Shown piece after piece: positions 1-7,829 of a DNA stretch of 64,000 nt. The stretch lies in the NCBI GenBank assembly GCA_029778615.1, contig JAKOPZ010000034.1:1-64000 (forward strand). Reading direction: 5' to 3'. The translations under genes and the position numbers were made by a program. The notes below the pieces were generated by a model. The model was not told where the DNA came from, did not search any database, and saw only the letters and a list, made by a program, of their open reading frames with translations. The number at the start of each line of letters is the position of its first letter. The first letter of the stretch is position 1. This DNA comes from Chloroflexota bacterium. GTDB taxonomy: Bacteria > Chloroflexota > Anaerolineae > UBA4142 > SHND01.

Positions 1-825
1 CCAAATATCGGTCGTGTCCACAAATCCTGCCGGAAAACCGTAATACACCATAAAGCCGCCGCGCGGCACGGTACGGCCCGCGCGTTTTACCGCCATCGCG
101 TGCCCGAGTTCGTGAATGATGAGCGTTACGAATTGAAAGATAAAAAACAAGCCGAACGCGGCGAGGTACGAATCGCCGAATTGCAGTACCGGATAACGCC
201 CGCGCGCAAACTCTTTAACATAAATCAGCGGTCCCAAAATAGAAAGCGTTACGCCGACCCAAAGCGCGGGAGGCGTAAAAAAGAACCATCCAACGGCGTG
301 ATACAAACGCGTTAGAAAGGCGTCAACATTGTTGATGGTAAATTCGGACGAAACAAAACCGCGCGCCACACGCGTCGCGCGTTCGGTCACGCCGGGTGCG
401 CGCATTTTGGCGCGCAGTTCGTCGTACACATTGCGCGGCGGTTCGTCGAGAAAGGAATTGCTCGCCAACAATTGTACGAGTCCCGTGACATGCCGCACCG
501 CCAGCACGCGATTGCGCGTAAAATATTCCACCACCAATTGCTGAACCGTGCGCGTGCCGTCCATCAAACCGACGAGTTCATATTCGCGCGGCTCTAATTT
601 GAGATATGTATTTTGCGCGGTGTTGCGTAACACAAAATAGGGTTTCCCGGTCGTCGTCGTTTGCGGCGAAACTTCGATCGTCTGTACCACGCGCGGACGC
701 GCATGAATGGGTGCGAGCGAATTCTGCAATGGATTCCAAACACTTGACGCCGAATGTTCCGGCTGTGTTTGCAGCGCAGCAGCAAGTTCCGTCCACACGG
801 TCGGACGTGTTTCTACGTTCGTCAT
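1..825 (-). CDS. PqqD-domain/M50-type zinc metallopeptidase, partial (C-terminus outside window)
   Basis: Reading the minus strand from the ATG at 825 gives 275 open codons running off the left edge. Residues about 58-125 look like a PqqD-type (RRE-like) peptide-binding domain, with the typical run YLKLEPREYELVGLMDG. Residues about 165-240 contain hydrophobic segments, and the second ends in HELGHA (His238, Glu239, His242), the HExxH zinc motif of M50 (site-2-protease-like) membrane peptidases. Proteins with this layout occur as 'putative peptide zinc metalloprotease' genes in peptide-maturation clusters. The ATG lies 3 nt after the stop of the upstream ATP-grasp gene and in the same frame, so the two are surely cotranscribed. 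Likely role (inferred): binding the leader of the nearby precursor and cleaving or exporting it at the membrane. The third zinc ligand lies outside the window. Confidence 0.85.
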   Translation of the reverse strand, partial: MTNVETRPTVWTELAAALQTQPEHSASSVWNPLQNSLAPIHARPRVVQTIEVSPQTTTTGKPYFVLRNTAQNTYLKLEPREYELVGLMDGTRTVQQLVVEYFTRNRVLAVRHVTGLVQLLASNSFLDEPPRNVYDELRAKMRAPGVTERATRVARGFVSSEFTINNVDAFLTRLYHAVGWFFFTPPALWVGVTLSILGPLIYVKEFARGRYPVLQFGDSYLAAFGLFFIFQFVTLIIHELGHAMAVKRAGRTVPRGGFMVYYGFPAGFVDTTDIW

Positions 826-828
826 GCG

Positions 829-1695
829 TCACGCGCTGCGCGCAGCTTTGGCAACCAGATGGTCAACCATCATGCCCGCGACATCTATGCCGCCATATTC
901 TTGCGCATGAACATAGTAGCAAGGAAAATTCGCTTCAAGTAAAAAAAATTGCCCATCGGCTTGCTCCAAAATATCTACCCCCGCAAATTCATAACCCAAC
1001 ACTTGCGCCGCCGTCACCGCAACCTTTTGCATCGCCGCGCCGGGCGGAATTTCAGAATGAGTTTCCCCCCGGACTGCCTGCGCGCGAAAATCATTCGCAA
1101 TCGGCGATTTGTGATAGGAAGCGATAACGCGTTCGCCCAACACAATCAAACGCCAATGCGCGGCGTCGGCGATATATTGCGCGAGCAGCGGATTGGCGCC
1201 CTGGCTCAATTCATAATCCAACAAGGAAAACAACGCGGGAAAAGAGTCCACGCGCATTACGCCAATGCCGTTGGCAAAGCCCAACATTTTTACAATCAAC
1301 GGAAAACCGCCGACATATTCCACATACTGCGCGATGCGTTTGCGATTCGTGGTCGAACAATACACGGTGCGCGGAATGGGCAGCCCCGCGCGTTCAAAGC
1401 GCAGCGGCGGCGTGTGCGGCACAAAAAAAACGCCGTCCGGGCGCGTGTGAAATGTGACGACGCCTCTATTCCACAAAAATTGTTCGACGCGCATTGCCAC
1501 CTGAGAAACCGCCGGGCGATACATCAAATCCCCCGCCTGCAATTGGCGCCCGGGCGCATAATCGAATGAACGCGCGTCCACATCCAAAAATTCAATCTCG
1601 CGCGCCCGACACGCCGTCTCCAACGACACGATAGTCGGCAGCGCTACGGCATCATTTACACAAAAGAACCTTAGGTTCTGAACGAATCGCATCAC
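829..1695 (-). CDS. RimK-like ATP-grasp ligase, putative peptide-modifying enzyme
   Basis: A 288-codon ATP-grasp protein. The central lysine-containing strand (PLIVKMLGFANGIGV) and the C-terminal Mg/ATP site (AGVDIL followed by FLLEANF, with the conserved D, E and N) match RimK-type ligases, which join a carboxylate to an amine or alcohol. The GTG at 1695 has GGAG 7 nt upstream; the ATG at 1692 is the alternative. It lies between a small leader-peptide-like gene and a PqqD/M50 peptidase. That context resembles clusters in which an ATP-grasp enzyme forms side-chain ester or amide links on a ribosomal peptide (graspetide-type chemistry). The chemistry here is inferred. A role in amino-acid ligation to another small molecule is possible. 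Confidence 0.8.
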   Translation of the reverse strand: MMRFVQNLRFFCVNDAVALPTIVSLETACRAREIEFLDVDARSFDYAPGRQLQAGDLMYRPAVSQVAMRVEQFLWNRGVVTFHTRPDGVFFVPHTPPLRFERAGLPIPRTVYCSTTNRKRIAQYVEYVGGFPLIVKMLGFANGIGVMRVDSFPALFSLLDYELSQGANPLLAQYIADAAHWRLIVLGERVIASYHKSPIANDFRAQAVRGETHSEIPPGAAMQKVAVTAAQVLGYEFAGVDILEQADGQFFLLEANFPCYYVHAQEYGGIDVAGMMVDHLVAKAARSA

Positions 1696-1733
1696 GGTTT
1701 CGCTCCACAGTTCGATTTGAACAAAAGCACAGC

Positions 1734-1771
1734 ACCCGATTCCGAATCGGGTACAGCCATTCGGAATCGGG
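1734..1771. repeat. Palindrome between precursor and ATP-grasp genes
   Basis: Positions 1734-1752 form a near-perfect palindrome (ACCCGATTC, one central base, GAATCGGGT). A half copy, ATTCGGAATCGGG, follows at 1759-1771. On the minus strand it sits between the precursor stop (1794) and the ATP-grasp start (1695). No U-run follows it, so it is more likely an mRNA-processing or stability hairpin, or a dispersed palindromic element, than a full terminator. Confidence 0.55.
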
Positions 1772-1793
1772 CGCGCTTGACAAGACTACCATT

Positions 1794-2030
1794 TCAACTG
1801 TGAAAGGGGAATCCTTCGCCATCCTCCACTTTCAACTTGGAGACGCGTTTGTCCAATTGTCCTGACATCGAGTCAAAGTCGTCAGGCGTGAGTCCGTACA
1901 GCATTGCCTTTTCGGCGTCGTCCAATTCGTATCCCGCCAACGCTTTGCCGGGGTCATTGAACAATTGATTCATGAATTCCGGTTCGGCAGCGGCGCGCCC
2001 AATAATTTCCGCAACCACTTTTTGTGACAT
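1794..2030 (-). CDS. NHLP/Os1348-like RiPP precursor peptide (candidate)
   Basis: A 78-aa acidic protein with a very strong Shine-Dalgarno (AAGGAGGTGA at about 2037-2046). Residues 5-50 (VVAEIIGRAAAEPEF, then a DPGKALAGYELDDAEKAML helix and GLTP) resemble the Nif11/NHLP-clan leader peptides I recall as the Os1348 or Franean1_4349 type: a short helical domain with a 'GRA..D/EPEF...L..DP..AL.GY.L...E' pattern. The tail (about 56-78) is a different, polar segment rich in Lys, Asp and Glu and ending GFPFHS. It is a plausible core for side-chain cross-linking by the ATP-grasp gene that follows. No Cys is present, which argues against lanthipeptide or thiazole chemistry. Family membership is from memory and unverified. 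Confidence 0.75.
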   Translation of the reverse strand: MSQKVVAEIIGRAAAEPEFMNQLFNDPGKALAGYELDDAEKAMLYGLTPDDFDSMSGQLDKRVSKLKVEDGEGFPFHS

Positions 2031-2061
2031 GTGAATTCACCTCCTTTCGCGTTTGATTTTG

Positions 2062-2317: not shown

Positions 2318-2998
2318 TTATTTTGGAATGAATTTGATGTTGCCCCAATCGCCGACCTTGACGTACACAATGCCTTTGTTAAACACTTGGGTAATGTATT
2401 GCTCGCCGTTAAAGGTAAAGGGAATCTCGTCGGTCTGTTGGTCTTGCAATCCGTTCGCCTGCGCGAATTTCCACAGCGCGGCGGTATTGTTGACCGGCAT
2501 CCACGGCTGCGCCGCGTTGGCGCGGTCCAGCACCGCCTGCTCCAGCCCGCTCAACTGTTTGACAATCGCGGCGGGGTCAACGAAACCTTTGAAACCGTTC
2601 GAGAGGTTGACGGGATTGCCGTTCGGGTCGGTGAGACGCAAGCCAAGATGCAAATGCGCGCCGCGTGTGTTGCCCGTATCGCCCATCAAACCAATCGGCT
2701 GCCCGCGCAAAACCTTGTCGCCTTTTTTGACATAGTTTTCCGCGAGATGCGCGTACGTCCACAAACGCCGATTCACCGGCACATAAATCACAACGTTGAT
2801 GCCGTATGCTTTGCCCTGCACCGGGTCGTCCACATCTTGCACGACCACGCCGCTTTCGACCGCGTATACTTTTTTATCGTCACCCTTGGGAATAAAATCG
2901 AGACCTTCGTGACCATTCAACCCAAACTGCGCGTAATCTTGCGGATTCGCGGCGAATGCCTGTGTGAGCGTCGAACCGGCGGCAAAAGGAATTTGCAT
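2318..2998 (-). CDS. M23 (LytM-type) peptidoglycan endopeptidase
   Basis: A 226-aa protein with the complete LytM zinc site: HEGLDF (HxxxD) near the N-terminus, then AHL, then GAHLHLG (HxH). These residues bind zinc in M23 peptidases, which cut peptide cross-bridges in cell walls. The rest (about 150-226) is a small C-terminal region without a recognised domain. There is no signal peptide. The protein begins almost at the catalytic domain, so export or an inactive or intracellular role is unclear. ATG 2998 follows GAGGTG closely; GTG 3004 is an alternative. It sits at the end of the glycosyltransferase block, consistent with an envelope role. Confidence 0.88.
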   Translation of the reverse strand: MQIPFAAGSTLTQAFAANPQDYAQFGLNGHEGLDFIPKGDDKKVYAVESGVVVQDVDDPVQGKAYGINVVIYVPVNRRLWTYAHLAENYVKKGDKVLRGQPIGLMGDTGNTRGAHLHLGLRLTDPNGNPVNLSNGFKGFVDPAAIVKQLSGLEQAVLDRANAAQPWMPVNNTAALWKFAQANGLQDQQTDEIPFTFNGEQYITQVFNKGIVYVKVGDWGNIKFIPK

Positions 2999-3040
2999 AC
3001 ACACCTCTGGGGATAAAAGACTGGAGCCTGGAGCTTTGCA

Positions 3041-5042: not shown

Positions 5043-7829
5043 TTACTTTTGCCGTTCCACTCGCAGCGATTCCAATTCGGCGCCCAACGCGCGCCCTGCG
5101 CCATCAAGTGTGGCATCGCTCACCAATTCCAGCCAATACCCTTCGCTGCCCGCATCGAGTTTCACCGCTTTCAAAGCAATCGTGTAGGTACTCATGCTCT
5201 GCGAAAGCGTCACCTGTCCCAACACATGTTTGCCCTGACGAATTTGCAACTGTGCGCCATCGCGCGGCGCCCGCGCGCGCAGGGTCAGCACAAGGTTTGC
5301 GGAAGAATCATCCGCGACGGGCACGCGCACCACACCGCTCAACGTTTTCGCGTCAAGCAGTTTTTTATTTTCTGCGAGGATGCCGCCAATCCAACGCGTA
5401 TGGGCTTCCGGCGCGCGTTCCAGAAATCCGCTCACGAGATATGGAAAATCCGCGCCGCCAAAATTTAGCGCAAACGGATACGTGTCGGGTGCGCGGCGCG
5501 GCACGGCGCGATACAACGCGTAATTCAAATTGACGCGCCAGGTTGTGCGCGGCATGAATTCGTACGAAAACGCCAACTGCGGCACATCGAGCGACGCATC
5601 GCCGACGCGTTCCAATTCATAATTTGGCAATTGCAGTTTGCCGCCGTTCGTGCCAAAGGCGAGAATTACGTCACGTCCTTGCGCGCGCCACGCGTCGAGC
5701 ATCGCCGCCACTTTATCGCCCGGCGGATTGTTGAACACGGTCACAAACGCATCGCGTCCAAAAATATATTTCAACGGCGTCGCGAGCGCGGCGGGTTCAT
5801 CGCGTCCGGCGGAAAAAATGACAACCGCGTTCGGCGGAATCTGTTCCGCGAATTTTTCAAGCTGCGCGTACGCGCCGCCCAATTCGTTCATGCCGACGAT
5901 GGATTTTTCAAACGGCTCGATGCGTACGCCCGCCAACGAAACCGGCTGCACCACAAACGGCACGCGCAATGCGATTCCCTCCGCGCGACTTGCGTCCACG
6001 AGCCCCATCGCATACAAATTGTAAAGCATCCACAACGCGAACGCGCTCGCCGCCACATAGCGTAGGGGCGAAGCATTTGCGGAACGCGTCTCGCCTTCAA
6101 ACGGCGCGCGGGCAAATGCTTCGCCCCTCCCCCACAACCACATCAACGCGCGCGCCGCGCACAACACAAACAGCGGCAGCACCAACGGAATGTAATGCCG
6201 CGTAGTGTAAATGTAATGCGGATTGGAATAGAGTTCATCCAAATAGAACACGGCAAAGAGCGCCGCCGTGCCAAAAAAGACAAGATTGCGCGCGTTCAAA
6301 TCGCGCAGCACCACCAGCGCCGCGCCCAGCGTCGCGAGCGCGATGCCGATGGGCGAAAGATACCAACCCAGTTTGAGCAAATTCGCTTCACTGCGCGTCG
6401 GCGTCAAGCCGCCCACATACGCATACAACGTTTCGGCGCGCGGCAGGACAAGATAAAACGCTGCGATAAGAATGACGAGCAGTCCAGCCAAACCGGCGCG
6501 CAGAATTTTTTCCGAACACATAAAACGCGCGCCGAACGCGTGTCCCCACCGCGCGCGCGCATTTTGAAACAGGCGGTCGGCGACAAACAATGCCGCGAGC
6601 CCCAACAGCAGCGCGCCAAGGACGAAAATCCAATACTCGCCGCGCGCCAACACCGCTTGCGCGTCGGGAAAATCAAAGCGAAAAATTTTGTCAATGCTGT
6701 TGAGTTTGAGCGCGTGCGTGTATTGGTAATACAAATAATTCGGCGCAAACACGAGCATATGCGCGACCGCCTGCGCGAACACAATGCCAAACGCGCCAAA
6801 CAACATCCAATGTTCCCGCTGCCATTTCCGCCAAAAAATCGTTGCGACGAAATACAACCCCAACGGCACAAGAAACAAAATCGAGTCGGAACGCACCAGA
6901 AAGAGCTGCCCGAACGCAACGCCCGCGACGAGACCAAGACCTGCCAGGTTTTGCGATGCCCCCATTGAGGAACCTTTCAGGTCTTGGCGCATCAATTTGG
7001 TGAGCGCAAACATTCCCGTCAACACCAGGAATTGTGTGAACGCTTCGGCGACGGGATACCGCGCGAACCAAAACTGCGGCACCATGACGACGAGCAGAAA
7101 AAATGCGAGCCGCGCGACCTGTTGCCCGAACACTTCGCGCGCGAGGAAATATAACGCGATGCTGCCCAACAACGCAATCAACGGCGTCGCAAACAATCCG
7201 AGCGGTACGCCGAGCAGCGCGTCCCACAGCGCGAGCCACGCAGGATACAAATGCAAAAACTGCGGCAGCACCACACCGCGCGTTTGGTCGGCGATAAAAA
7301 AGCCGGGCAAGCGCACTTGCGTGTACAGCATGTACGGATTGGTCAATTGCCAGTAAAACGTTTTCGACGCGTCGGGGTCGAGCTGCGCGACCTGCGCGTC
7401 GTGAATGGCGATGCCGCCCGTTTGCGCGATGCTCGCGCCGGTGTTGATGTACGTGCCCGCGTCGCTGTTGCCCAAAATGTATTCTGCCGGATGGGCAAAG
7501 AGAAAAATCGCCAACGCGAGAATGGCGAAAAAGAACCCGTCCGGTTTCGCGCCGCGCAGGGACCACGCGGAAAATTTCCGTCGCGCGAGAATCCAAACCA
7601 ACGCGCACGCGCCAAGCACCCACGCTAAAAGATTCCATAGCGAGAATGCGCCAAATTCCGCGAGCGTCAGCGCCACTCCCGTCGTCAAGCACACACTCGC
7701 GGCAACGGCGACAAACAATCGTTCGCCCGCCGACAGCGCGTTAGGGTCATGCAAAAATGTGCGGCTGAATAAATAACCCGGAAGGAAAAAAAGGAGCGGA
7801 ACGAAAAAGGGGACGAGCAGTAACGACAT
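5043..7829 (-). CDS. Large GT-C membrane glycosyltransferase (GT39/ArnT-like)
   Basis: A 928-aa protein with about 12-14 hydrophobic segments in its N-terminal two thirds and a C-terminal soluble beta-rich domain (about 640-928). The first external loop carries the acidic GT-C signature GNSDAGTYINTG. GT-C enzymes use polyprenyl-phosphate sugars made by enzymes like the neighbouring DPM1-like protein. Two palindromic repeats lie inside the gene: at residues about 281-299 (6934-6987) and 568-589 (6062-6127), both in loops between membrane segments. The acceptor (glycan, protein or lipid) cannot be read from the sequence. The start ATG 7829 is followed directly by a signal-anchor-like segment. 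Confidence 0.85.
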   Translation of the reverse strand: MSLLLVPFFVPLLFFLPGYLFSRTFLHDPNALSAGERLFVAVAASVCLTTGVALTLAEFGAFSLWNLLAWVLGACALVWILARRKFSAWSLRGAKPDGFFFAILALAIFLFAHPAEYILGNSDAGTYINTGASIAQTGGIAIHDAQVAQLDPDASKTFYWQLTNPYMLYTQVRLPGFFIADQTRGVVLPQFLHLYPAWLALWDALLGVPLGLFATPLIALLGSIALYFLAREVFGQQVARLAFFLLVVMVPQFWFARYPVAEAFTQFLVLTGMFALTKLMRQDLKGSSMGASQNLAGLGLVAGVAFGQLFLVRSDSILFLVPLGLYFVATIFWRKWQREHWMLFGAFGIVFAQAVAHMLVFAPNYLYYQYTHALKLNSIDKIFRFDFPDAQAVLARGEYWIFVLGALLLGLAALFVADRLFQNARARWGHAFGARFMCSEKILRAGLAGLLVILIAAFYLVLPRAETLYAYVGGLTPTRSEANLLKLGWYLSPIGIALATLGAALVVLRDLNARNLVFFGTAALFAVFYLDELYSNPHYIYTTRHYIPLVLPLFVLCAARALMWLWGRGEAFARAPFEGETRSANASPLRYVAASAFALWMLYNLYAMGLVDASRAEGIALRVPFVVQPVSLAGVRIEPFEKSIVGMNELGGAYAQLEKFAEQIPPNAVVIFSAGRDEPAALATPLKYIFGRDAFVTVFNNPPGDKVAAMLDAWRAQGRDVILAFGTNGGKLQLPNYELERVGDASLDVPQLAFSYEFMPRTTWRVNLNYALYRAVPRRAPDTYPFALNFGGADFPYLVSGFLERAPEAHTRWIGGILAENKKLLDAKTLSGVVRVPVADDSSANLVLTLRARAPRDGAQLQIRQGKHVLGQVTLSQSMSTYTIALKAVKLDAGSEGYWLELVSDATLDGAGRALGAELESLRVERQK
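6062..6127. repeat. Palindromic element (GGGGCGAAGCAT family) inside GT-C gene
   Basis: A 16-bp inverted repeat (GGGGCGAAGCATTTGC and its complement) is separated by about 30 nt. A second copy of this family lies at 49377-49437. Inside the GT-C gene it encodes a polar stretch in frame. Confidence 0.75.
6934..6987. repeat. Palindromic element (CCAAGACCTG family) inside GT-C gene
   Basis: Inverted arms CCAAGACCTG (6934-6943) and CAGGTCTTGG (6978-6987), with an inner AGGTT/AACCT pair, form a long imperfect hairpin within the coding sequence. The reading frame stays open across it. Confidence 0.65.

Follow-up and report, generated by a model that had tools for sequence, protein, structure and literature searches.

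The most useful result of this analysis, and the one that is new here, is an association between a short motif in precursor peptides, LxxRx[STQ][KR], and a protease that combines a PqqD-like domain with an M50 peptidase. Overall, the motif is found in 21 of the 23 genomes that contain both Os1348 precursors and the protease, compared with none of the 81 Os1348 genomes that lack the protease (p=5e-20, a value that ignores kinship). Precursor, motif and protease are all present, together with a RimK-like ATP-grasp ligase, at one end of the window, that is, the whole 64,000-nucleotide stretch analysed, taken from the start of contig C5 in a genome of 6 Mb. We are confident that this locus is a RiPP operon, and its product is very probably a peptide that carries a chemical modification. 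The best explanation overall, which we favour with modest confidence, is that the ATP-grasp enzyme would close a ring within a short core peptide and the protease would then release it.

The precursor, ATP-grasp and protease genes all lie on the minus strand, at the positions given in the original prediction. In order of transcription the cluster comprises a small zinc-ribbon protein (2283-2062), the precursor (2030-1794), an RNA hairpin (1769-1737), the ATP-grasp enzyme (1692-829), the protease, which begins at 825 and runs on into contig C271, and a translin-like gene that also adjoins the cluster in two relatives (L017 and L019). Base 1 of the window is the contig end and cuts through the protease gene midway. 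C271 terminates in 201 bases identical to window 1-201, an assembly overlap, and the leftward extension that had been suggested, made by joining C5 to C271, completes the protease as an open reading frame of 731 residues, the N-terminal 275 of which are encoded in the window (1-825, minus strand). The zinc-ribbon gene, the hairpin and the cyclic-nucleotide (cNMP)-binding domains of the protease were not part of the original prediction. The first of these, on the minus strand 31 bp upstream of the precursor, is kept in that place in L017 and L018, and in L121 it adjoins an Os1348/PqqD-M50 pair. At one point the genes are less tightly spaced than first described: precursor and ATP-grasp genes lie about 100 bp apart, with the hairpin in between. 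This minus-strand element folds strongly (z about -4) in the window species and in both sister species, with one compensated base pair (C-G to U-A), and it may serve to keep transcripts of the precursor more abundant than those of the enzymes. It is present in a single copy in the 6-Mb genome, which rules out a dispersed repeat. Beyond the zinc-ribbon gene, an M23 peptidase gene (window 2318-3004) has similar DNA at three other genomic places (C122, and C232 twice), and such a gene also lies beside the cluster in three relatives.

The 78-residue precursor (1794-2030, minus strand) passes the NF038399 profile of the Os1348 family, NHLP clan, with 55.5 bits against a curated cut-off of 40, bearing out the NHLP/Os1348-like leader originally proposed. 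Against the Frankia_peptide profile PF14407 it scores 35.7 bits (E 1.1e-8), under the gathering cut-off of 48. Pairwise dS in the leader is about 0.9-1.0 among three species and dN is 0.01-0.06; since dN lies far below dS, the precursor is a real gene under purifying selection. The strong ribosome-binding site that had been claimed for it is there as well, in the form of a Shine-Dalgarno sequence AAAGGAGGTGA (2037-2047, minus strand) that is conserved in two sister species. At the junction of leader and core stands LDKRVSK (residues 59-65; 1836-1856, minus strand), an instance of the LxxRx[STQ][KR] signature, followed by the predicted core, LKVEDGEGFPFHS (residues 66-78; 1797-1835, minus strand).

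The joined protease contains HELGHA and FNFNPLLELDG, with the HELGH and NPLLELDG motifs intact. A sister protease of 729 residues has two C-terminal cNMP-binding domains (PF00027, E 3e-43) and a weak M50 match. When the N-terminal region was aligned with 25 relatives, PqqD (PF05402) was detected in 12 of the 26 sequences, with a best E of 5e-7, and the profile gave no direct match in the window's own protease fragment. The PqqD-fused HELGHA peptidase of the original prediction is thus confirmed as to HELGHA, but its PqqD domain is seen in homologues and not directly in the window protein.

How general is the link between motif and protease? NF038399 matches occur in 110 of 298 genomes of the class, and the PqqD-M50 protease in 26 of the 298, distributed over about a dozen families; Os1348 precursors are present in 23 of these 26 genomes, compared with 87 of the 272 others (Fisher p=2e-8). 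The motif was first noticed where the Os1348 domain ends in genomes with the protease, and was then counted. In the set of genomes that defined it, 20 of the 21 with protease and Os1348 carry the motif and none of the 29 without the protease do so; in a held-out set of 54 genomes it is found in one of the two with the protease and in none of the 52 others. There are two exceptions. The Os1348 genes adjacent to the protease in G148 lack the motif, and in G076, the held-out protease genome whose Os1348 genes have no such motif, the protease lies beside a curated NHLP-leader precursor (TIGR03793, 62.1 bits, cut-off 50.9) that ends LEARATK. Besides this NHLP leader, the motif follows a second additional leader type next to PqqD-M50, the short acidic leaders of G237, a genome in which all four precursors carry LDxRV[ST]K or VDERVSK directly before the core.

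We read LxxRx[STQ][KR] as a candidate recognition or cleavage element of the PqqD-M50 protease, and one that probably marks the precursors this protease handles. The association could also reflect a single Os1348 subfamily inherited with the protease. As a tentative extension, possible rather than probable, LxxRx[ST]K may act as a portable signal for processing that stands behind three or more unrelated kinds of leader and is recognised by a single, cyclic-nucleotide-gated PqqD-M50-cNMP protease; a common release module yielding very short peptides would then be combined with different tailoring enzymes in different genomes (ATP-grasp, ATP-grasp with 2OG oxygenase, B12 radical SAM, or none seen).

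Os1348 genes were also seen in other arrangements. About 8 kb from the ATP-grasp cluster of G217, a further PqqD-M50 protease lies in a second set (L031; contig C22, 28000-38000), where it accompanies an Os1348 precursor and a methyltransferase of the B12 radical SAM type (TIGR03975, 650 bits). In G184, which is without the ATP-grasp gene, four tandem Os1348 precursors with differing cores precede a radical SAM gene (L030:873-4335). Directly upstream of a PqqD-M50 protease, L078:8330-9574 encodes an Os1348 domain with a tail of more than 300 residues in Gly/Ala/Asp-rich repeats. Os1348 proteins with tandem-repeat tails, possibly multi-core precursors, were found at L209:418-846 (PAGGPNGPWGWQFMSE) and in L182 near 600-900 (HASGPNGPWDWQFGSRDV), both in genomes without PqqD-M50.

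The ATP-grasp ligase (829-1692, minus strand) has 287 residues from the ATG at 1692, with a GTG at 1695 as a possible alternative start. It matches RimK (PF08443) with 64.9 bits, and its best curated model is TIGR00768 (rimK_fam), with 79.2 bits against a cut-off of 143.4. Against the graspetide maturase model TIGR04187 it reaches 32.4 bits, where the cut-off is 350, and it exceeds the cut-off of none of the curated graspetide-maturase models searched. Among solved structures, residues 100-284 match RimK-type ligases (PDB 7qyr, 5zct), with PDB 7DRM, which we take to be the graspetide synthetase PsnB, well below these in score; the first 100 residues gave no match in this single-sequence search. 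A PHROGs search returned the S6 ligase domain only, and a plasmid search gave only RimK-like matches of <35% identity for the ATP-grasp enzyme and no match for the protease. AlphaFold2 models, with a mean pLDDT of 35 for the ATP-grasp enzyme (four-row alignment) and 52 for the protease, were too poor for fold searches.

From the alignment, the ATP-binding and metal-site residues of the enzyme look intact. On the substrate side, the orthologues of four species have HWR, QWR or NWR at the position of the RimK DIR and NFPCYYVHAQE at that of NASPGLEG, and both loops are fixed or nearly so in all four. Because these loops are altered and yet conserved, the substrate probably differs from that of RimK. 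We rejected a plain housekeeping RimK in view of the conserved linkage of the genes together with the altered substrate loops. Might the enzyme still act in a RimK-like manner, adding free amino acids such as Glu to the core or its C-terminus without forming a ring? The RimK-type ligases are, after all, its best matches. The ATP-grasp domain is common to many enzyme families, however, and the unmatched N-terminal region, the score under the TIGR00768 cut-off and the altered loops all speak against this proposal, as does the lack of a shared C-terminal pattern among the cores, which end in S, G, F, D or E. We consider it unlikely.

Precursor, ATP-grasp and protease genes occur together in four of the six genomes of the genus, the relatives being deposited Anaerolineae MAGs. 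The ATP-grasp enzymes of L017 and L018 share 87% and 79% identity with that of the window, and these loci have the same gene order and near-identical cores (LKMEDGEGFPFHS and LKSEDGEVFPFHS). In the fourth species (L019, from G237; 69-70% identity) the locus is rearranged: the ATP-grasp gene has a 2OG-Fe(II) oxygenase gene as its partner (PF13640, 41.6 bits), and the two are convergent with the protease and four precursors. Two of the four have Os1348 leaders and two have unrelated short acidic leaders, with the cores GVVWGNRASSIASDGIIWGD and LAVQPSGFQSVNADVQPTGFPPVNAEVQPSGFGE. Among the genes beside the L019 protease, two precursor-like ones without a database match (5716-5907 and 5438-5674, minus strand) have repetitive cores, with VVWGN/IIWGD and VQPSGF/VNAD repeats. 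Outside the genus, no ATP-grasp orthologue was found among 298 genomes sampled from the class, 400 from the phylum and 20 from the order, these being drafts in which the locus may be missed, and a phylum-wide search gave generic ATP-grasp domains only.

The cores vary in a way that answers only half-way the earlier concern that the tail might be conserved like a normal domain: it is nearly fixed in three close species and completely different in the fourth. The window core has three acids and two nucleophiles; one G237 core has triple repeats and another, LCICDF, has no nucleophile in the form of Ser, Thr or Lys. Every one of the seven cores found at ATP-grasp loci has Asp or Glu, and the 12 shortest cores (4-8 residues) of protease genomes without this ATP-grasp enzyme have neither, a comparison that is not statistically fair given unequal core lengths, three near-identical cores and acids in longer cores elsewhere. 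The acid-bearing cores at ATP-grasp loci would fit carboxylate activation.

The ATP-grasp gene is missing from most PqqD-M50/Os1348 genomes, where cores may be as short as 4-8 residues (for example GMWPGIG and RAWRG). The protease has two cNMP-binding domains, and cNMP-binding or cyclase-like proteins lie near several loci. All of this would suit a signalling peptide freed by the M50 protease under cyclic-nucleotide control, with the ATP-grasp modification as a species-specific addition. We doubt this explanation, however, since no receptor was identified, cNMP binding by the protease is a prediction and NHLP-clan precursors usually serve RiPPs. That a housekeeping ATP-grasp gene lies beside an unrelated RiPP gene by chance is very improbable, for although ATP-grasp genes are common and the window type occurs in one genus only, the trio is kept in four species, even where rearrangement has moved the ATP-grasp gene and paired it with an oxygenase, and the ATP-grasp residues are strongly conserved.

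We return, then, to ring closure, the likeliest chemistry for the ATP-grasp enzyme on the sequence evidence. The Os1348-type leader of the 78-residue precursor would bring the substrate to the enzymes, and the ATP-grasp enzyme would phosphorylate a core carboxylate, that of E69, D70 or E72. The activated carboxylate could then form an amide or ester within the peptide by joining a nucleophile, K67, S78 or K65 (the last within the motif). LDKRVSK would be recognised or cut by the membrane protease, PqqD-M50-cNMP, and the product would be a peptide some 13 residues long, with cyclic nucleotides perhaps controlling its release.

To our knowledge, many RiPPs, most graspetides among them, have no known leader-removing protease, and few have been characterised from the Anaerolineae, to which ATP-grasp loci would add a further peptide group. 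Since precursor, protease and candidate motif co-occur in many families of one class, short synthetic peptides could serve to test the protease. With the motif, genomes could also be searched for precursors that escape leader profiles, such as the two non-Os1348 precursors of G237.

How does the operon compare with known systems? According to a passage in Makarova et al. 2022 (PMC8939145), Frankia_peptide (PF14407) is among the RiPP families of a 2009 ATP-grasp survey. A homologous precursor adjoining an ATP-grasp gene elsewhere, which the original prediction called for, thus has a parallel in that passage besides those found within the genus. The window resembles these systems in placing a member of this precursor superfamily beside an ATP-grasp enzyme, but its precursor scores under the Pfam cut-off and it has the PqqD-M50-cNMP protease and the zinc ribbon in addition; one relative also has an oxygenase. 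With graspetides such as microviridin, plesiocin and corallotide it shares a precursor with an ATP-grasp enzyme, a core with Asp/Glu and Lys/Ser and, as expected of that class, a conserved ATP-grasp gene adjoining the precursor, here in four species. The oxygenase beside the G237 ATP-grasp gene belongs to the same family, PF13640, as that paired with the synthetase in the corallotide cluster (PMC13097080). Unlike graspetides, the window has an enzyme under the graspetide cut-offs, and the cores show no clear donor/acceptor pattern that recurs, one G237 precursor being a possible exception. The leader motif Phhx(1,2)h, common to about half of graspetide precursors (PMC8939145), was not found in the first 30 residues of the leader, where P17 and P27 precede EF and GK, and M50 is not listed among common graspetide partners in the same source. 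The label "graspetide-like" is plausible, given a precursor, ATP-grasp enzyme and RRE-like protease conserved in four species, but the enzyme scores as a RimK type and we would not file the locus as a graspetide yet.

Daptide clusters have an RRE fused to the N-terminus of an intramembrane M50 site-2 protease (PMC10036551), and the window system has the same fusion, seen in PF05402 among the homologues and in HELGH and LDG. A relative of the window protease scores 142.6 bits against the daptide model NF041824 (cut-off 300), however, and the window type differs in its two cNMP domains and in the absence of daptide partner enzymes and of the daptide C-terminal Thr, which none of the cores compared possesses. 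M50 proteases also have roles in epipeptide and pearlin maturation (PMC10885120). The Os1348/PosA cluster of Pseudomonas (pfl/pos) has the NF038399 precursor family in common with the window; there the changes to the core come from HEXXH oxidative cleavage and a nitroreductase domain, without ATP-grasp (PMC12636437). Clusters of the rSAM_ocin_1 type (TIGR03975), exemplified in G217, with its second PqqD-M50, and in G184, pair Os1348 precursors bearing the window's motif with a different tailoring enzyme, a B12 radical SAM methyltransferase. The open-access literature, to which our survey was confined, yielded no system uniting the precursor, ATP-grasp and PqqD-M50 elements. The parts of this operon are known, and it is their combination that is rare.
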